DNA of 64,000 nt from Rhodoferax sp. Lineage in GTDB: Bacteria; Pseudomonadota; Gammaproteobacteria; Burkholderiales; Burkholderiaceae_C. The translations under genes were made by a program, and so were the position numbers. The stretch spans positions 62,001 through 126,000 of the forward strand of contig JARWZT010000011.1 of assembly GCA_029866205.1 (NCBI GenBank), given 5' to 3'. Position 1 is the first letter of the stretch; the number at the start of each line of letters is the position of its first letter. The notes under the pieces are model-generated. The model had not been told where the DNA came from. It did no database searches and saw only the letters and a list, made by a program, of their open reading frames with translations. Below, in pieces: positions 48,252-53,995 of this stretch.

Positions 48252-48326
48252 GGGCGGTTAGCTCAGGGGTAGAGCACTGCATTCACACTGCAGGGGTCAC
48301 AAGTTCGAAACTTGTACTGCCCACCA
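48252..48326 (+). tRNA. tRNA-Val (anticodon CAC)
   Basis: A full cloverleaf can be folded by hand: acceptor GGGCGGT/ACTGCCC with one G-U pair, D-stem GCTC/GAGC, anticodon stem CTGCA/TGCAG with loop TTCACAC (anticodon CAC), T-stem ACAAG/CTTGT with loop TTCGAAA, and an encoded CCA end. It marks the left edge of the accessory island. Confidence 0.95.
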
Positions 48327-48378: not shown

Positions 48379-48385
48379 ATGCCCG

Positions 48386-48414
48386 AAAGTAGTAAAAACC
48401 GGGTTTACTACTTT
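48386..48414. repeat. Perfect 11-bp inverted repeat downstream of tRNA-Val
   Basis: AAAGTAGTAAA and TTTACTACTTT are separated by AACCGGG. It follows the tRNA terminator by 8 nt. It could be a bidirectional terminator or part of an old integration site. Confidence 0.7.
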
Positions 48415-48753
48415 TGTTAGATTTTTCTAACTGAATTCATAGGTTTTCCCTCTCAAAATCTATCTCAGTTCTAACCTCTGACCTCTGCATGTTGGTGGGT
48501 TTTTCGGTGGTCAAAAAAACGGCGGTTCAAGTGGGTGTCCAGACACTGTCCGCATCGCTGTTTTTTAGCAAGCAGCGCTAGCAAATCTCAGCATGACGCG
48601 CTACAGGGGTGATTTGAGGCCCGCTTGGGTCATGGACTCGCGCTCCCTGATGGGGGAGAGCAATACTCTGGATTTCGCTAAGAACAAGACGCACAAGTGC
48701 GTGTGGCGCTATCCTATCTGTACTGAGTGTTCACCCAGCACTGGAGGTACTGC
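48415..48753. other. Gene-poor stretch at the island start
   Basis: I see no convincing gene in these 339 bp. It holds one copy of the dispersed repeat (48606-48635) and a short Shine-Dalgarno region ahead of the DUF4864-like gene. The track ORF 48593..48874 is not coding by appearance. Confidence 0.5.
48606..48635 (+). repeat. Dispersed island repeat, copy 1 (partial)
   Basis: GGGGTGATTTGAGG and the CGCTTGGG tail match the copy at 50678-50707 at 27 of 30 positions. The preceding CGCTACAGG matches the copy at 50773-50854. Confidence 0.7.
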
Positions 48754-49194
48754 ATGTTCTACGTACGTCGCTTCACCCTTGTTTGTCTTTGCCTTTTTGC
48801 CAGCCTTGGCGCGTTCAAAGCCCTGGCGGCAGAGCCGCTGGAGCCTGGCGATAGGGCGGCAGTGCGACTGGTAATCGAAGGGCAGTTAGCCGCGTTTGCG
48901 GATGATGACGCGGAACAGGCATTTTCATTCGCGAGCCCGACGATTCAGGAAATGTTTATCACGGGACGAAACTTCATGGACATGGTGCGCATTGCATACC
49001 CAGTGGTGTACCGCCCGGCCAGCCTGAGTTTTCAGGTTCCTTATTTTCAGGGCAATGAAGTCATACAAACCGTAGAGATGCGCGACGCAAAGGGCTCAGC
49101 CTGGACGGCGCTTTACACCCTGATACGCCGGCCTGATAACCTGTGGCGTATCAGCGGCTGTGTGCTGCGCCGGGGATCGGGCAAGGCTGTCTGA
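48754..49194 (+). CDS. Exported DUF4864-like protein
   Basis: The 146-residue product has a signal peptide (FTLVCLCLFASLGAFKALAAEP) and then a small mixed fold typical of DUF4864, with AVRLVIEGQLAAFADDDAEQAFSFASPTIQEMF and a final LWRISGCVLRR. DUF4864 has no known function and is related in shape to NTF2-like domains. I chose the ATG at 48754, preceded by GGAGG; the track start at 48727 has no such site. It is the only plus-strand gene in the island. Confidence 0.75.
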   Translation: MFYVRRFTLVCLCLFASLGAFKALAAEPLEPGDRAAVRLVIEGQLAAFADDDAEQAFSFASPTIQEMFITGRNFMDMVRIAYPVVYRPASLSFQVPYFQGNEVIQTVEMRDAKGSAWTALYTLIRRPDNLWRISGCVLRRGSGKAV

Positions 49195-49417
49195 GCGTGT
49201 CGGCTTGGTAATCCACACAGCTTCTACGCAGGCGGATTCAGGCCATCAGCGCACCATTAGTGCTTGGAAGAATTGACAGGCTAAGCATGGGCGGGTTCCC
49301 ATCCCGATTAAGGCATGCCTCAAGGCCTGTGGAATTTCAGTACGAGTTGCGAGGCGTGGCCCTTGATGCGGGCTTAGGCCAAGCAGGCCACTGAGTGACT
49401 TAGCGGCATCTTGGCTG
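49195..49417. other. Convergent intergenic region in the island
   Basis: These 223 bp lie between the stop codons of the DUF4864-like gene and the RodZ-like gene. I see no gene and no clear terminator. Confidence 0.4.
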
Positions 49418-50428
49418 CTACCGTTCCTTCAAGCCAATCTGAGTTATCTTTGAATCAAGAACCGGAACGTGGTATCCCTGAAAAAAAACCTTCATCCCCG
49501 ACATATTGCGGCTGTAAATATGCCAAGGCGCTGCCCCCCGGACACTCTTGGCATCCCCAGCTTTCAATGACAAAACTGATGTTTTCATTTGCCCATCGAG
49601 AACACAAATTTTTACATCATCGCTGGCCATGAAGTGAACGTAGTTGCCATCGGTTCTAACCTGCAACGGTTGAAGTTGGATTTCCTTATCGCTCCAGGGA
49701 CATAGAGCTCGGTCCGCCTGTGTCGTCAAAGGGGCAGCTCCGAGAATCGGTTTGGCTACGGGCGCAATTGAAGTTTGTACCGGTATGCCAACTAACGGGT
49801 CAATTCGGCTTTCATCATTAGCTCTATCAACCTTAGGCACCGTAACCGATTGTGGCGTTTCACTTTGGGCGCTAACGGCTTGGACGAGTGCGTCCTCGCT
49901 TGAGAAATACAACGTTGGGGCTAACCATTGCAGGTAGTACTGCAAATTCGCTTGTCCTATTGCCAAAAGCGCAGTGGCGGCCAGCAGACCCAAAACGTAA
50001 TAATTCTTGCCAGTGGGGGCAGCAGTTTCCGCTAGAAGTCTTTCGGCTGGAAGGACCTGCAGGTCGCGCGCACTCTCGGCGGCCAATCGGCTGAGGTTGC
50101 GCAATGCTTCGGGTTTCCATGATTGATCTGAATTGACTCTCACTTGCGGTTGGTCTGTCGGGACATAGGCTTGGACTGCGGTCGCTTGCTCCGGTGCACC
50201 CGAGCCATCCTCGCGTCCCAGCCTTTGCAGTAGTTTCCTGCCCATGGCGGTCATGATTGCCGGTGAATGGAAGAGCGAACTGCTGACTCCGTCTTCAAGC
50301 AGCTTCAACTGCGCAATGGAGATGCAATTGCTTTTGGCGAATTGCTGGATGTCAAAGCCTGCGGCGTCCCGCAGCGACCTGAGGCGTTCACCGTCGGTGG
50401 CTTGCCAGAATGTGTGCCCCTTTGTCAT
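49418..50428 (-). CDS. RodZ-like helix-turn-helix membrane protein
   Basis: The 336-residue product has an N-terminal Xre/RodZ-type helix-turn-helix (residues ~10-70, LRSLRDAAGFDIQQFAKSNCISIAQLKLLEDG), a membrane helix near 143-165 (NYYVLGLLAATALLAIGQANL), and a C-terminal periplasmic domain with VHFMASDDVKICVLDGQMK and KVFFQGYHVPV that resembles the RodZ DUF4115 domain. This layout suggests a membrane-bound cytoskeletal or signalling adaptor. It lies in the island, far from mre genes, so it is unlikely to be the housekeeping RodZ. Confidence 0.7.
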   Translation of the reverse strand: MTKGHTFWQATDGERLRSLRDAAGFDIQQFAKSNCISIAQLKLLEDGVSSSLFHSPAIMTAMGRKLLQRLGREDGSGAPEQATAVQAYVPTDQPQVRVNSDQSWKPEALRNLSRLAAESARDLQVLPAERLLAETAAPTGKNYYVLGLLAATALLAIGQANLQYYLQWLAPTLYFSSEDALVQAVSAQSETPQSVTVPKVDRANDESRIDPLVGIPVQTSIAPVAKPILGAAPLTTQADRALCPWSDKEIQLQPLQVRTDGNYVHFMASDDVKICVLDGQMKTSVLSLKAGDAKSVRGAAPWHIYSRNMSGMKVFFQGYHVPVLDSKITQIGLKER

Positions 50429-50547
50429 GGCGATTTCCTAAAGACTGGGGCGCTGTATTGCGCAAAAGTAATATGTGCACCCTTCACTGCTCTGAGCAGC
50501 GAAGCAGACTAGTTTTTACTACTTGCCAGTTAAGATTTCGTGAATTT

Positions 50548-50775
50548 TTACTTAAGTGAAATCGCTGCCTCCATAGCTTCGATGTTTATGGACTTTGAAA
50601 TCGTCTGAAGCTCCAATAGACTTCTGGAGATATCGAATTTTTCGCCGAAGTCATCATGTGCCGATGGGTTGCTCAAAGGGCTGATTTGAGGCTCGCTTGG
50701 GGCATGGGCTAAACAGGTGGAAGGGCCACATTGCCAATACACATGCAACTTTTCCAGGAGCTTTTTGTGCATCAC
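50548..50775 (-). CDS. Doubtful small ORF overlapping the dispersed repeat
   Basis: A 75-residue ORF on the minus strand ends with FDISRSLLELQTISKSINIEAMEAAISLK, which reads like a helical protein. Its first half is the complement of the repeat copy at 50678-50707. It may be a gene fragment captured next to the repeat, or chance. I see no recognisable family. Confidence 0.25.
   Translation of the reverse strand: MMHKKLLEKLHVYWQCGPSTCLAHAPSEPQISPLSNPSAHDDFGEKFDISRSLLELQTISKSINIEAMEAAISLK
50678..50707 (+). repeat. Dispersed island repeat, copy 2 (partial)
   Basis: GGGCTGATTTGAGG with CGCTTGGGG matches copy 1 at 27 of 30 positions. Only the right part of the full-length repeat is present. Confidence 0.7.
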
Positions 50776-50854
50776 GCACCCGCCCAGCTACTCAGCCCAG
50801 CCCAGCCTGAAGATCAGCCGCTACAGGGCGTTTTTGACACCCGCTTGACGCCCC
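50773..50854 (+). repeat. Dispersed island repeat, copy 3 (full length)
   Basis: The roughly 80-bp unit begins CACGCACC, carries CAGCTACTCAGCCCAGCCC in the middle and ends with CGCTACAGGG and GTTTTTGA followed by CGCTTGA. About 13 of 80 positions differ from the copy at 53100-53180. Confidence 0.8.
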
Positions 50855-51094
50855 AAATGCAGTAAACCCGTAAGCCAGCATGTAGGCAAAAAAGAAGCCC
50901 TCACTAAAGAGGGCCAAGGAGAGTGGCAACTACTCCAAAATCAAAAATTAAAGTCAAGCAACCGAAATTAAAATTGCCATAGAGCAAGTTGACCGCTGGT
51001 TGCTGAAAGTGCTGGTGCCGACAACCATTTGACTTAGGTGGCCAATAGTCGCTCACCTAGATTAAAAGGTATTTGGTGCTAACAGTGGCGTTAC
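50776..51094. other. Gene-free stretch between repeat copy 3 and the acidic-repeat gene
   Basis: This 319-bp stretch holds repeat copy 3 and a minus-strand terminator (50888-50914). The remaining part is AT-rich with no recognisable gene. Confidence 0.5.
50888..50914 (-). terminator. Rho-independent terminator, minus strand
   Basis: On the minus strand GCCCTC-TTTAGT-GAGGGC is followed by TTCTTTTTT. It lies about 180 bp after the stop codon of the acidic-repeat gene and probably ends that transcript. Confidence 0.8.
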
Positions 51095-51328
51095 TTATGA
51101 GGCGTCAGCTTGATGTTCGGCATCGTGAGCAGTTTCTGAGTCCGCTTGATGCTCGGCTTCATTAGAAGTTTCCGATTCAGCTTGATGCTCGGCTTCCTGC
51201 GAGGTTTCCGATTCAGCTTGATGTTCAGTCTCGTGCTCTGTCTCAGTGCCAGTTTCCGCGTCATCGTGCGGCTCAATGGTCTCCGTTTGCGAGTCTACTG
51301 TTAAATCTACGTTAGTTTCGGTGTTCAT
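51095..51328 (-). CDS. Small acidic protein with 12-residue repeats
   Basis: I do not recognise the family. The 77-residue product is almost wholly Glu/Asp/Thr/Ser/His/Gln and contains about three and a half copies of a 12-residue unit (AEHQAESETSQE, AEHQAESETSNE, AEHQADSETAHD), encoded by 36-bp direct repeats. It has no hydrophobic core and should be disordered. I chose the ATG at 51328 because AAGGA sits 8 nt upstream; the track start at 51406 lacks this. A terminator follows, so it is probably a real transcript. Confidence 0.6.
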   Translation of the reverse strand: MNTETNVDLTVDSQTETIEPHDDAETGTETEHETEHQAESETSQEAEHQAESETSNEAEHQADSETAHDAEHQADAS

Positions 51329-51632
51329 TTTTGTCATCCTTGGGTTGCATCTATCAGCGGTATTGACAAACGCCTGTACGTCACTGGTAGACACTCCGAT
51401 TAACATTTACGAACGCTAAATATTTATGACGCTGACGTTTGCAAACCGCCGGACCGCAGTGGTGCCAGCAGATTTGTGATCCGCAGTCCGCGGCCAAGGC
51501 CATGTTGCTTGCTTGGCCGCCACAATTGTCCGTTCCAAATGAACTGTAAAGTCTTAACCAGGGTCCTCAGGGGCGGATATCGGCTGCAATTAACAGCACT
51601 AAGTCCCGTGCTTCACGCACCAGTCCAGCTAC
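51329..51632. other. Gene-free stretch with repeat copy 4
   Basis: This 304-bp stretch between the acidic-repeat gene and the cyclase gene holds the left part of the dispersed repeat near its right end. I see no coding frame of interest. Confidence 0.5.
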
Positions 51633-51646
51633 TCAGCCCAGCCCTG
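51614..51646 (+). repeat. Dispersed island repeat, copy 4 (left part)
   Basis: CACGCACCAGTCCAGCTACT and CAGCCCAGCCCTG match the left part of the copy at 53100 almost exactly. The copy overlaps the stop codon and last codons of the cyclase gene, so the end of that protein may derive from the repeat. Confidence 0.75.
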
Positions 51647-52979
51647 TGTGGGGGCTGAACAACTCAAAGTGCTCGCTGAATCCCTTGAGTTCGTGTTCGC
51701 CGATAGAAGCAAAGGTCATTTCACTGCCACCGGTCAGGTCCTTCAATGTTCGGGTCATCAAGACTTTTCCCGAACCGGCTTTTTCCATCACCCGCGCTGC
51801 GATATTGACTGCGATGCCAGTCACATCGTCGCCACGGTTTACGACTTCGCCAACATGCAGGCCAGCGCGGATGGGTAGACCAATCGCTTCTAGGGCTTGT
51901 ACCAGCGCTAAGGCGCATTGCAGCGCGCGCACCGGGCCGTCAAAAACAGCCAGTAATCCGTCGCCCGTGTTTTTCACAATGCGTCCACGGAATTGCTTGA
52001 CCAGGGGGGTAGCGATCGCATCATGCTGATCCAAGGCCTTGCGCCAGGCTTGATCACCCATTTGGATCAATTTTTCGGTGGAGCCTACGATGTCCGTAAA
52101 AAGCGCCGTGCTCAGTTTTTTGTCCTCGATGTATTCGCTACGGCCAAGGCGTGAAGCCTTGACAAAGCGAACCATGGTCTCAATCACCTCCACGCTGTCT
52201 TCAAATTGAGGCATGTGCGATGTCGTGGGCAATTCCAAGTAGGTCGCGTTGGGTATATGGTCTGCGAGGTAGCGGCCATTGCCCCTGCGCACCAACTTGT
52301 CGTGCCTGCGTTGAATGACAAGCGTGTCTTGGAGTACGTTGCGCAAAATGGGCCGCACATCGATGAGATCGTTCGCTAGCATGAACTTGCGCACCCCGCT
52401 GGGCGAGCAGGCCATACGCTCCCATTTTGAGAGCACTTGCGAGTGGCTTGGATCGAAGCCGCCTTTGGGTCCGGCCATCGCAACAAAATTTCCCTTGCCC
52501 CAATTGGAAATGAGCGGTTCCAAGACCTTCTCAAGACGAGGACTGTGCGGGTAGTCGTCGCTGCCCCAAAACTTGGCCATCGAGCCAAACAAAATCAGGC
52601 GCTCCACTTTCTTAGGGTAGGTTGCCGCAAAAAGCAGGCAAACAGGCCCGCCTTCGGACAAGCCAAACAAAGTAGCGCTTTGGGAATCAACGGCCTCCAT
52701 CACTGCCCGTAGGTCGTCAATCCGCTCCTCCAGTGTGGTGGCGCCTTCGATACGGTCTGACATGCCTTGCCCCCGTTTGTCAAAAATGATGACGCGAAAG
52801 TGCTGGCCCAATGCCCTCAAGAAGGCACTGGAATCACTGTCTTCCCACACTAATTCCAAATGGGAAATGATGCCAGGCACATACAACAAGTCGCAAGTGC
52901 CATGGCCAAACACCTGGTAAGCAATGCTCAATTCGCCCGATAGAACGTACTGAGTTTCTGGACGATCTATAGCCAACAT
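51633..52979 (-). CDS. Alpha/beta-hydrolase-class III adenylate/guanylate cyclase fusion
   Basis: The 448-residue product joins two domains. Residues ~10-265 are an alpha/beta hydrolase with the nucleophile elbow FGLSEGGPV (Ser near 108) and a late His in TSHMPQFED. Residues ~285-440 are a class III nucleotide cyclase with the metal-binding Asp in LFTDIVGSTEK, the second Asp in NTGDGLLAVFDGP and GLHVGEV. No membrane segment is seen, so it is probably cytosolic and makes cAMP or cGMP under control of a small-molecule-binding hydrolase domain. The last residues overlap a dispersed repeat. Confidence 0.88.
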   Translation of the reverse strand: MLAIDRPETQYVLSGELSIAYQVFGHGTCDLLYVPGIISHLELVWEDSDSSAFLRALGQHFRVIIFDKRGQGMSDRIEGATTLEERIDDLRAVMEAVDSQSATLFGLSEGGPVCLLFAATYPKKVERLILFGSMAKFWGSDDYPHSPRLEKVLEPLISNWGKGNFVAMAGPKGGFDPSHSQVLSKWERMACSPSGVRKFMLANDLIDVRPILRNVLQDTLVIQRRHDKLVRRGNGRYLADHIPNATYLELPTTSHMPQFEDSVEVIETMVRFVKASRLGRSEYIEDKKLSTALFTDIVGSTEKLIQMGDQAWRKALDQHDAIATPLVKQFRGRIVKNTGDGLLAVFDGPVRALQCALALVQALEAIGLPIRAGLHVGEVVNRGDDVTGIAVNIAARVMEKAGSGKVLMTRTLKDLTGGSEMTFASIGEHELKGFSEHFELFSPHTGLG

Positions 52980-53278
52980 CGGTGCTCTCCAAAAAACGGG
53001 TCGAGGGTCGGAACGGGTAACTTACGAAACCACTATACCTGTCTGACTAACTCAAACGTCACTCTGAGAATGATGGGTATGAAAGGCGGGATTGCGCACC
53101 ACGCGCCAGTCCAGCTACTCAGCCCAGCCCTGCCTGGAGATCAGGCGCTGCAGGGTGTTTTTGATGCCTGCTTGAGACCTATGCTAACGAACAGTGTGGA
53201 GATTTAGAAGCGGCCGCCATCGGGCACTCAAAAGCGCAGGAACGCCCCATGACGCCCCTGCGCGTTCGTCCAAGTGAC
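52980..53278. other. Upstream region of the cyclase gene with repeat copy 5
   Basis: These 299 bp hold the likely cyclase promoter region on the minus strand and one full-length dispersed repeat. No gene is seen. Confidence 0.45.
53100..53180 (+). repeat. Dispersed island repeat, copy 5 (full length)
   Basis: CACGCGCCAGTCCAGCTACT opens the unit, GCCTG-GAGAT-CAGGC forms a small hairpin in the middle, and GCTGCAGGGTGTTTTTGA with GCTTGAGACC closes it. It is the best match to copies 3 and 4. Confidence 0.8.
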
Positions 53279-53611
53279 TTACTTGGCTGCAATCTGCAGC
53301 GTCAAACTGTCGGCATAGCTGCCGGCAATGGCTTGGGCGTTGGCTGCAATGGCCACCACCAGGTTGTTTACCGAGTTGAACTTCGCTTGATTGCGCGTGG
53401 CTGTCAGCGCCGAAGTGATGTCGCCGGTGGCATCGCTGTAGGCAACGGAGTACGCCGCCAGCGGTGCCGTTGCGTCATCCGGATTGGTGCGCAACTGACC
53501 GTAGTTTGCCGAAGTGATGGTGACTGCGTAGCCGGTGACTGAGTTGCAGTCCTCGGTTACGGTTCCCACCGTTGCGCCGACTTCACCGCCTTTGATGTCC
53601 AGGCGGCTGGA
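53279..53611 (-). pseudogene. N-terminally truncated beta-rich exported protein (fragment A)
   Basis: The readable frame extends upstream of the track ORF to about 53611 (RLDIKGGEVGATVG...), followed by DCNSVTGYAVTITSANYGQL, APLAAYSVAYSDATG and an end ADSLTLQIAAK. This looks like the C-terminal half of a spore-coat-U/fimbrial-type beta-sandwich protein. No signal peptide or N-terminal half is found, and the frame runs into the head of an oppositely oriented fragment. I treat it as a remnant. Confidence 0.6.
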
Positions 53612-53921
53612 TTTCGGCGAGTTGGTCCAGGGAGCGACCCGCAGCGCTGGCCTCGTGGTTCAGGCCAATTCGACCTACACGATTGCGCTGGAGAGCGCGC
53701 AAAACGGCCAATTGGTGAACGCAAAATTTCCGCTGATGGGACTGGCTTATTCGCTTCGATTGGATGGAAGACCCATGTCCCTGGGGCCGAATGCCAGCGA
53801 TATCCGACTTGCAACGCCTGGGAGAGTTCGCCACGCGATTGAAGCCCGGATCGGTCCGGTGGAACGCGTTCTCGCTGGCGAATACGTTGACAGCCTTTTG
53901 GCCACGATCACTGCGCAGTGA
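53606..53921 (+). pseudogene. N-terminally truncated beta-rich exported protein (fragment B)
   Basis: The plus-strand frame RLDFGELVQGATRSAGLVVQ, then TYTIALESAQNGQL, GLAYSLRLDGRPMSLG and the end EYVDSLLATITAQ resembles the C-terminal half of the same SCPU-like family as fragment A. The N-terminal half and signal peptide are missing. The two fragments abut head to head within a few bases of each other, which indicates a rearrangement junction. Confidence 0.6.
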
Positions 53922-53995
53922 AAAGTCCATGGGCTGCGAGCCTGAAAACCCCGCGACGCTCAAAATGGAGCCATCGTGGTTATGCTCACGTCCCT

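Follow-up and report, generated by a model that had tools for sequence, protein, structure and literature searches.

The genes of a small island beside a tRNA-Val gene are set apart by copies of a short repeat, and we asked what this repeat is and what part it has played in joining the gene modules around it. The window, by which we mean the whole stretch of DNA analysed, is 64,000 nucleotides long (64 kb). An earlier note had read the repeat as a cassette boundary or a small mobile repeat.

Repeat copies divide a tRNA-Val island into modules

The island is about 5.5 kb long (about 48429-53976) and lies between a DUF427 gene and tRNA-Val (anticodon CAC; 48252-48326, + strand; ARAGORN and Rfam), which stands at its left edge. 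A relative, genome G045 (locus L063), presents the empty site: dnaQ, tRNA-Val and DUF427 are close neighbours, the match to the window runs to 48428 and starts again from 53977, and the island is missing. In G137, a remnant of about 0.5 kb is flanked on one side by tRNA-Val, still intact, and on the other by an additional 3' half of the tRNA, beginning in the anticodon loop. Thus tRNA-Val(CAC) is an insertion hotspot in the genus; extra 3' tRNA-Val halves are found in other genus members as well. The window genome has no second tRNA fragment at the far end of the island, where relatives such as G137 and G021 have one. Near the island ends at tRNA-Val we also observed GTAGTA...TACTAC motifs, in the window (48384-48416) and at loci L062, L077 and L084, and these could be candidate integrase arm sites.

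Copies of the repeat, which we call A to E from left to right, separate three gene-bearing intervals. The A-B module (48636-50676) contains a DUF4864 gene (48727-49194, + strand) and an HTH gene (49418-50428, - strand), the C-D module a small acidic repetitive ORF (51095-51406, - strand; ORF list and Pfam scan), and the D-E module an alpha/beta hydrolase and guanylate-cyclase-domain gene (51633-52979, - strand; Pfam and NCBIfam). The HTH protein and the hydrolase-cyclase are rare in the genus, being present in 2 and 3 of 103 genomes, respectively. The acidic ORF is made of 36-nt (12-residue) repeats (TETEHETEHQAESETSQEAEHQ...) and was assigned to no accepted family by the Pfam scan.

Sequence comparison confirmed that all five positions previously listed (48606, 50678, 50773, 51614 and 53100) carry repeat sequence, and all five copies are oriented on the + strand. 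Their extent is uneven: 50773 and 53100 fall in the two full copies, C (50765-50848) and E (53092-53175), which are 84 nt long and 85% identical to each other; 51614 marks D (51614-51651), which consists of the left half and the core; and 48606 and 50678 belong to right halves (A, 48598-48638, and B, 50675-50710) that share 88% identity over 34 nt. Allowing up to three mismatches, the 64-kb window contains three matches to the core, CAGCTACTCAGCCCAGCC, against 0.02 expected from dinucleotide shuffles, none of which contained three matches, and the right block is matched twice against an expectation of 0. The claim that every copy lies between genes holds for the three gene-bearing intervals and fails for B and C, which are about 90 bp apart without a gene in between, whereas the reported overlap with the cyclase stop codon is real and belongs to the left half D. 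Genes on the right-hand side of C, D and E have their 3' ends facing the repeat. The breaks in the half copies almost coincide, lying within about 10 nt, with D retaining the left part as far as TGTGTGG and A and B the right part from about GCGCTRYAGG; this shared breakpoint, in three copies only, suggests a crossover point.

A sister genome differs by one module at the repeats

The sister genome G141 (locus L076, which shares its contig with L089) aligns with the window from the tRNA as far as 48635 in copy A, jumps to B (50677) and continues through C to 50852. What G141 lacks is precisely the stretch between half copies A and B, the 2-kb module of the DUF4864 and HTH genes; it has one full and one half copy of the repeat. 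Homology stops at the right edge of C, beyond which the sequence differs between the two genomes. These edges are direct evidence that the modules are joined at the repeats; they uphold the earlier proposal that the repeats mark module boundaries.

The difference is compatible with site-specific recombination or short-homology recombination, as well as with insertion or deletion, and does not by itself tell which took place. Direct repeats often delete the DNA that intervenes, and the full copies (84 nt at 85% identity) and the A/B pair (34 nt at 88%) could have served in this way. The copies might then be ordinary shared sequence, at which RecA-type or illegitimate recombination made the module differences without a site-specific enzyme. 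We find this rather doubtful: for homologous recombination, a 34-nt stretch at 88% is short, the breaks in the half copies cluster near a single position, and the link of the sequence to recombinases elsewhere, described below, is left unexplained; such recombination could nevertheless act on top of the explanation that we prefer.

The repeat is confined to the island

A search of the whole 3.07-Mb genome found only three core-bearing copies with E < 0.03 (4.5e-38, 1.1e-20 and 2.9e-9), the next match having E = 0.03. Within its own genome the repeat is confined to the island, with no convincing copy elsewhere. An even spread through the genome, which would have refuted the earlier reading, was not seen.

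No Rfam family was matched by the repeat (the tRNA was the sole match of the scan), no terminator was predicted on its copies by the terminator scan, and the scan of the island genes showed no TnpA-REP transposase. When the window copies were folded as single-stranded DNA, another check proposed earlier, no unusual or stable fold emerged; related sites in other genomes fold better than shuffles in some cases only. A blastn search detected no copy in plasmids, and a pattern search none in viral contigs.

These results bear on the reading of the copies as an intergenic repeat of a general kind (a REP, a BRE-like repeat or a shared terminator), concentrated here by chance. The right halves of some related copies do resemble a hairpin followed by a T run, and Betaproteobacteria possess BRE, a repeat of about 90 bp that is scattered over chromosomes, often in tandem, and that resembles ours in length, host group, the coexistence of full and partial copies and the overlap of some copies with gene ends (PMC3110155). 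Judged by distribution alone, BRE does not fit the window repeat, which occurs in one island only. Given the lack of dispersal in the genome, of a predicted terminator, of unusual folding and of an Rfam match, together with the ties to tRNA-Val and integrases in other species, this reading is already disfavoured and we regard it as very improbable.

In other genomes the repeat lies beside tRNA-Val and an integrase gene

We scanned 84,980 species genomes with a two-block pattern and obtained nine contigs, each with a single full match. The distance from the core to tRNA-Val(CAC) is 113-117 nt in seven of the nine and about 400 nt in G141, and the ninth contig (L088) begins at the repeat and carries a remnant of a gene for int450, a 450-aa integrase. 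This integrase is encoded beside the repeat in six of the nine contigs, L088 included. In the better preserved elements the repeat, here called R, is positioned between the end of the int450 gene and the tRNA. The common form of R is 71-75 nt long and has inverted outer arms, AGCCCTACAAGC and GCTTGTAGGGCT, around a conserved centre like CAGCTACYCA. The window copies have the core and right half in common with R, while their left side differs and is without the AGCCCTACAAGC arm. A core match in G102 looks like chance and was set aside, as the surrounding sequence is long, coding-like and remote from any island.

When 16 chosen genomes were searched, each positive genome had one clear copy, with weak extra matches at E > 0.002. 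An array of copies occurs only in the window genome, and the exceptions to a single copy elsewhere are G141, with its full and half copy, and G539, with two copies. With a lone copy in nearly all of the other genomes examined, neither a small dispersed mobile repeat nor a general cassette array is supported.

Pfam matches of int450 to integrase N-terminal and central domains are borderline only, and the family alignment shows that candidate catalytic R, RH, R and Y residues are kept. Searching the window's own genome with PF00589 yielded two proteins, which from their sequences we take to be XerC and XerD, and missed the int450 family. One int450-family integrase, 41% identical, is encoded on another contig of this genome, between porin genes (G000:C13:81814-83088, L117), and no R was found near it. 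In phage records and viral contigs, int450 was not found.

The R-bearing int450 islands (L081-L087) contain a complete tRNA-Val(CAC) that is identical at 75 of 75 positions in six contigs from different hosts; the tRNA of the L083 island has three mismatches relative to the other six contigs. In five of them, the cut in the host tRNA-Val falls immediately after TTCACACTGC in the anticodon region, and in G021 a 3' half of the host tRNA-Val starting with TTCACACTGC is located at the other island end (the far end in L077). The arrangement matches the tRNA-dependent lysogeny described for phages (PMC10865867); no phage genes were detected in these islands.

A small tyrosine recombinase adjoins diverged copies of R

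In many, not all, other Burkholderiales elements, a diverged R lies directly upstream of the gene for a recombinase of 190 aa, which PF00589 identifies as a tyrosine recombinase (G539 island). Many plasmids of Acinetobacter, Piscirickettsia and Legionella encode homologs with about 40% identity, a pattern that would suit a small recombinase working at a site close by. R occurs in either orientation relative to the 190-aa recombinase gene, and is therefore not simply an mRNA leader of the recombinase. A pattern with exact arms had three matches in 399 order-level genomes, all directly upstream of the 190-aa recombinase, and its reversed control matched six genomes by chance. The two arms are complementary at 7-11 of 12 positions in nine copies; two further copies, whose arms are altered, have 8 and 6. 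Crossing arms between these two groups gives 2-7, and the random mean is 3.4. To judge from this small test, the arms of R tend to change together.

The G539 island, of which a large part was read, has two direct copies of R that bracket a 19.7-kb segment with the 190-aa recombinase, cargo genes and int450. Its large cargo genes look like a putative type III restriction-modification system. The linked recombinase that the earlier note had proposed to look for is thus present in other genomes, as int450 and as the 190-aa protein at the diverged site, and is missing from the window island, where traces of neither were matched; the 190-aa recombinase is absent from the window genome altogether.

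The proximity of R to a small recombinase in related elements raises the possibility that R is the crossover site of an undescribed non-integron cassette system. A tyrosine recombinase, probably the 190-aa, domain-only protein, would act in trans to swap modules of a gene plus R, and the window would hold an array at tRNA-Val from which the recombinase was lost. Several features of the window agree with such a system: copies in the same orientation bound the modules, the 3' ends of the genes on the right of C, D and E face the repeat, G141 cleanly lacks one module between half copies and differs in the next, the breaks in the half copies fall within about 10 nt of one another, and no recombinase or att relics lie between the copies, as expected for movement in trans. 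However, genomes that carry the recombinase have a single R and no arrays (arrays of R around the 190-aa recombinase were looked for and none was found), and the array that does exist sits in a genome without it. We therefore consider this system possible, though improbable.

Relation to known systems

The window modules resemble integron cassettes in having one or few genes per module and sites downstream of genes, and the inverted outer arms of R recall those of attC (GCCCTAC/GTAGGGC versus RYYYAAC/GTTRRRY). R nevertheless lacks the invariant AAC/GTT triplets of the R''/R' boxes, the window copies have no left arm, the window genome has no IntI and R is single-copy elsewhere. The earlier judgement that the repeat is not attC is borne out by the missing triplets and integrase. 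Plasmid modules bounded by pdif (dif-modules) likewise have no recombinase of their own and are bracketed by sequences like recombination sites, but R is 71-84 nt long versus 28 bp, and no match to the proteobacterial dif core (a single consensus) was present in the window at up to three mismatches. Strand-biased circularizing integrative elements (SE) have 19-bp C/C' motifs at their ends (PMC9345347); by description they too possess a pair of tyrosine recombinases, and inverted motifs at the ends, and they differ in the 19-bp C/C' form of these motifs and in their accessory genes. Composite islands and tandem accretion at tRNA genes share with our island the variable accessory DNA at a tRNA hotspot, end repeats in the same orientation and tRNA 3' halves in relatives. 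Unlike them, the window island has no att half or integrase, and its repeat lies inside the element end and not in the tRNA core.

Taken together, we think it probable that R comes from the end or the recombination region of integrative elements that form a family at tRNA-Val, and that the window holds a decayed composite island. Elements with tyrosine recombinases would sit at tRNA-Val(CAC) in Burkholderiales, with R conserved at their end or recombination region. Through repeated insertion or exchange, several R-bearing element ends may have piled up beside tRNA-Val in the window, and subsequent loss of the recombinases would leave the copies of R as joints between accessory gene modules. 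Confinement to the island, the empty site in G045, the linkage of R to tRNA-Val and recombinases elsewhere, the 19.7-kb segment bracketed by R in G539, the edges of the G141 match and the rarity of the island genes in the genus all count in favour of this explanation. On the other side, the window island has no int450, 190-aa recombinase or second tRNA half, its copies lack the left arm AGCCCTACAAGC that the recombinase-linked form has, and similar junctions would also result from homologous recombination over short stretches shared by the copies. We infer both that R itself is cut and rejoined and which recombinase may do so, and the window modules would have come in with integrative elements of this kind.

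The R-bearing tRNA-Val islands of freshwater Burkholderiales apparently constitute an undescribed family; the literature on DUF6641/DUF6876, Polynucleobacter islands and GmtY, in a survey that covered few subscription papers, had no match to an R element family. A repeat that was unexplained now becomes the end marker of a family of tRNA-Val islands, with a concrete pair of site and recombinase. If R is indeed a crossover site, it would provide bacteria with another route to shuffle small gene modules outside integrons.

Two further observations concern the G539 island and G331. In the G539 island, a 432-aa protein (L161, 3413-4711, - strand) is encoded adjoining DUF6876 and DUF6641 genes, and a related gene occurs in G331; the protein had no Pfam or NCBIfam match, and contains an ANVHDA stretch with faint likeness to DNA polymerase motif C. 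G331 also has three elements about 7 kb apart (L118-L119, G331:C7:104000-143999), all of which encode an int450-type integrase and carry a DUF6641 gene; the stretches between the elements contain small recombinases and porin genes, and a fourth int450-type gene follows further on.
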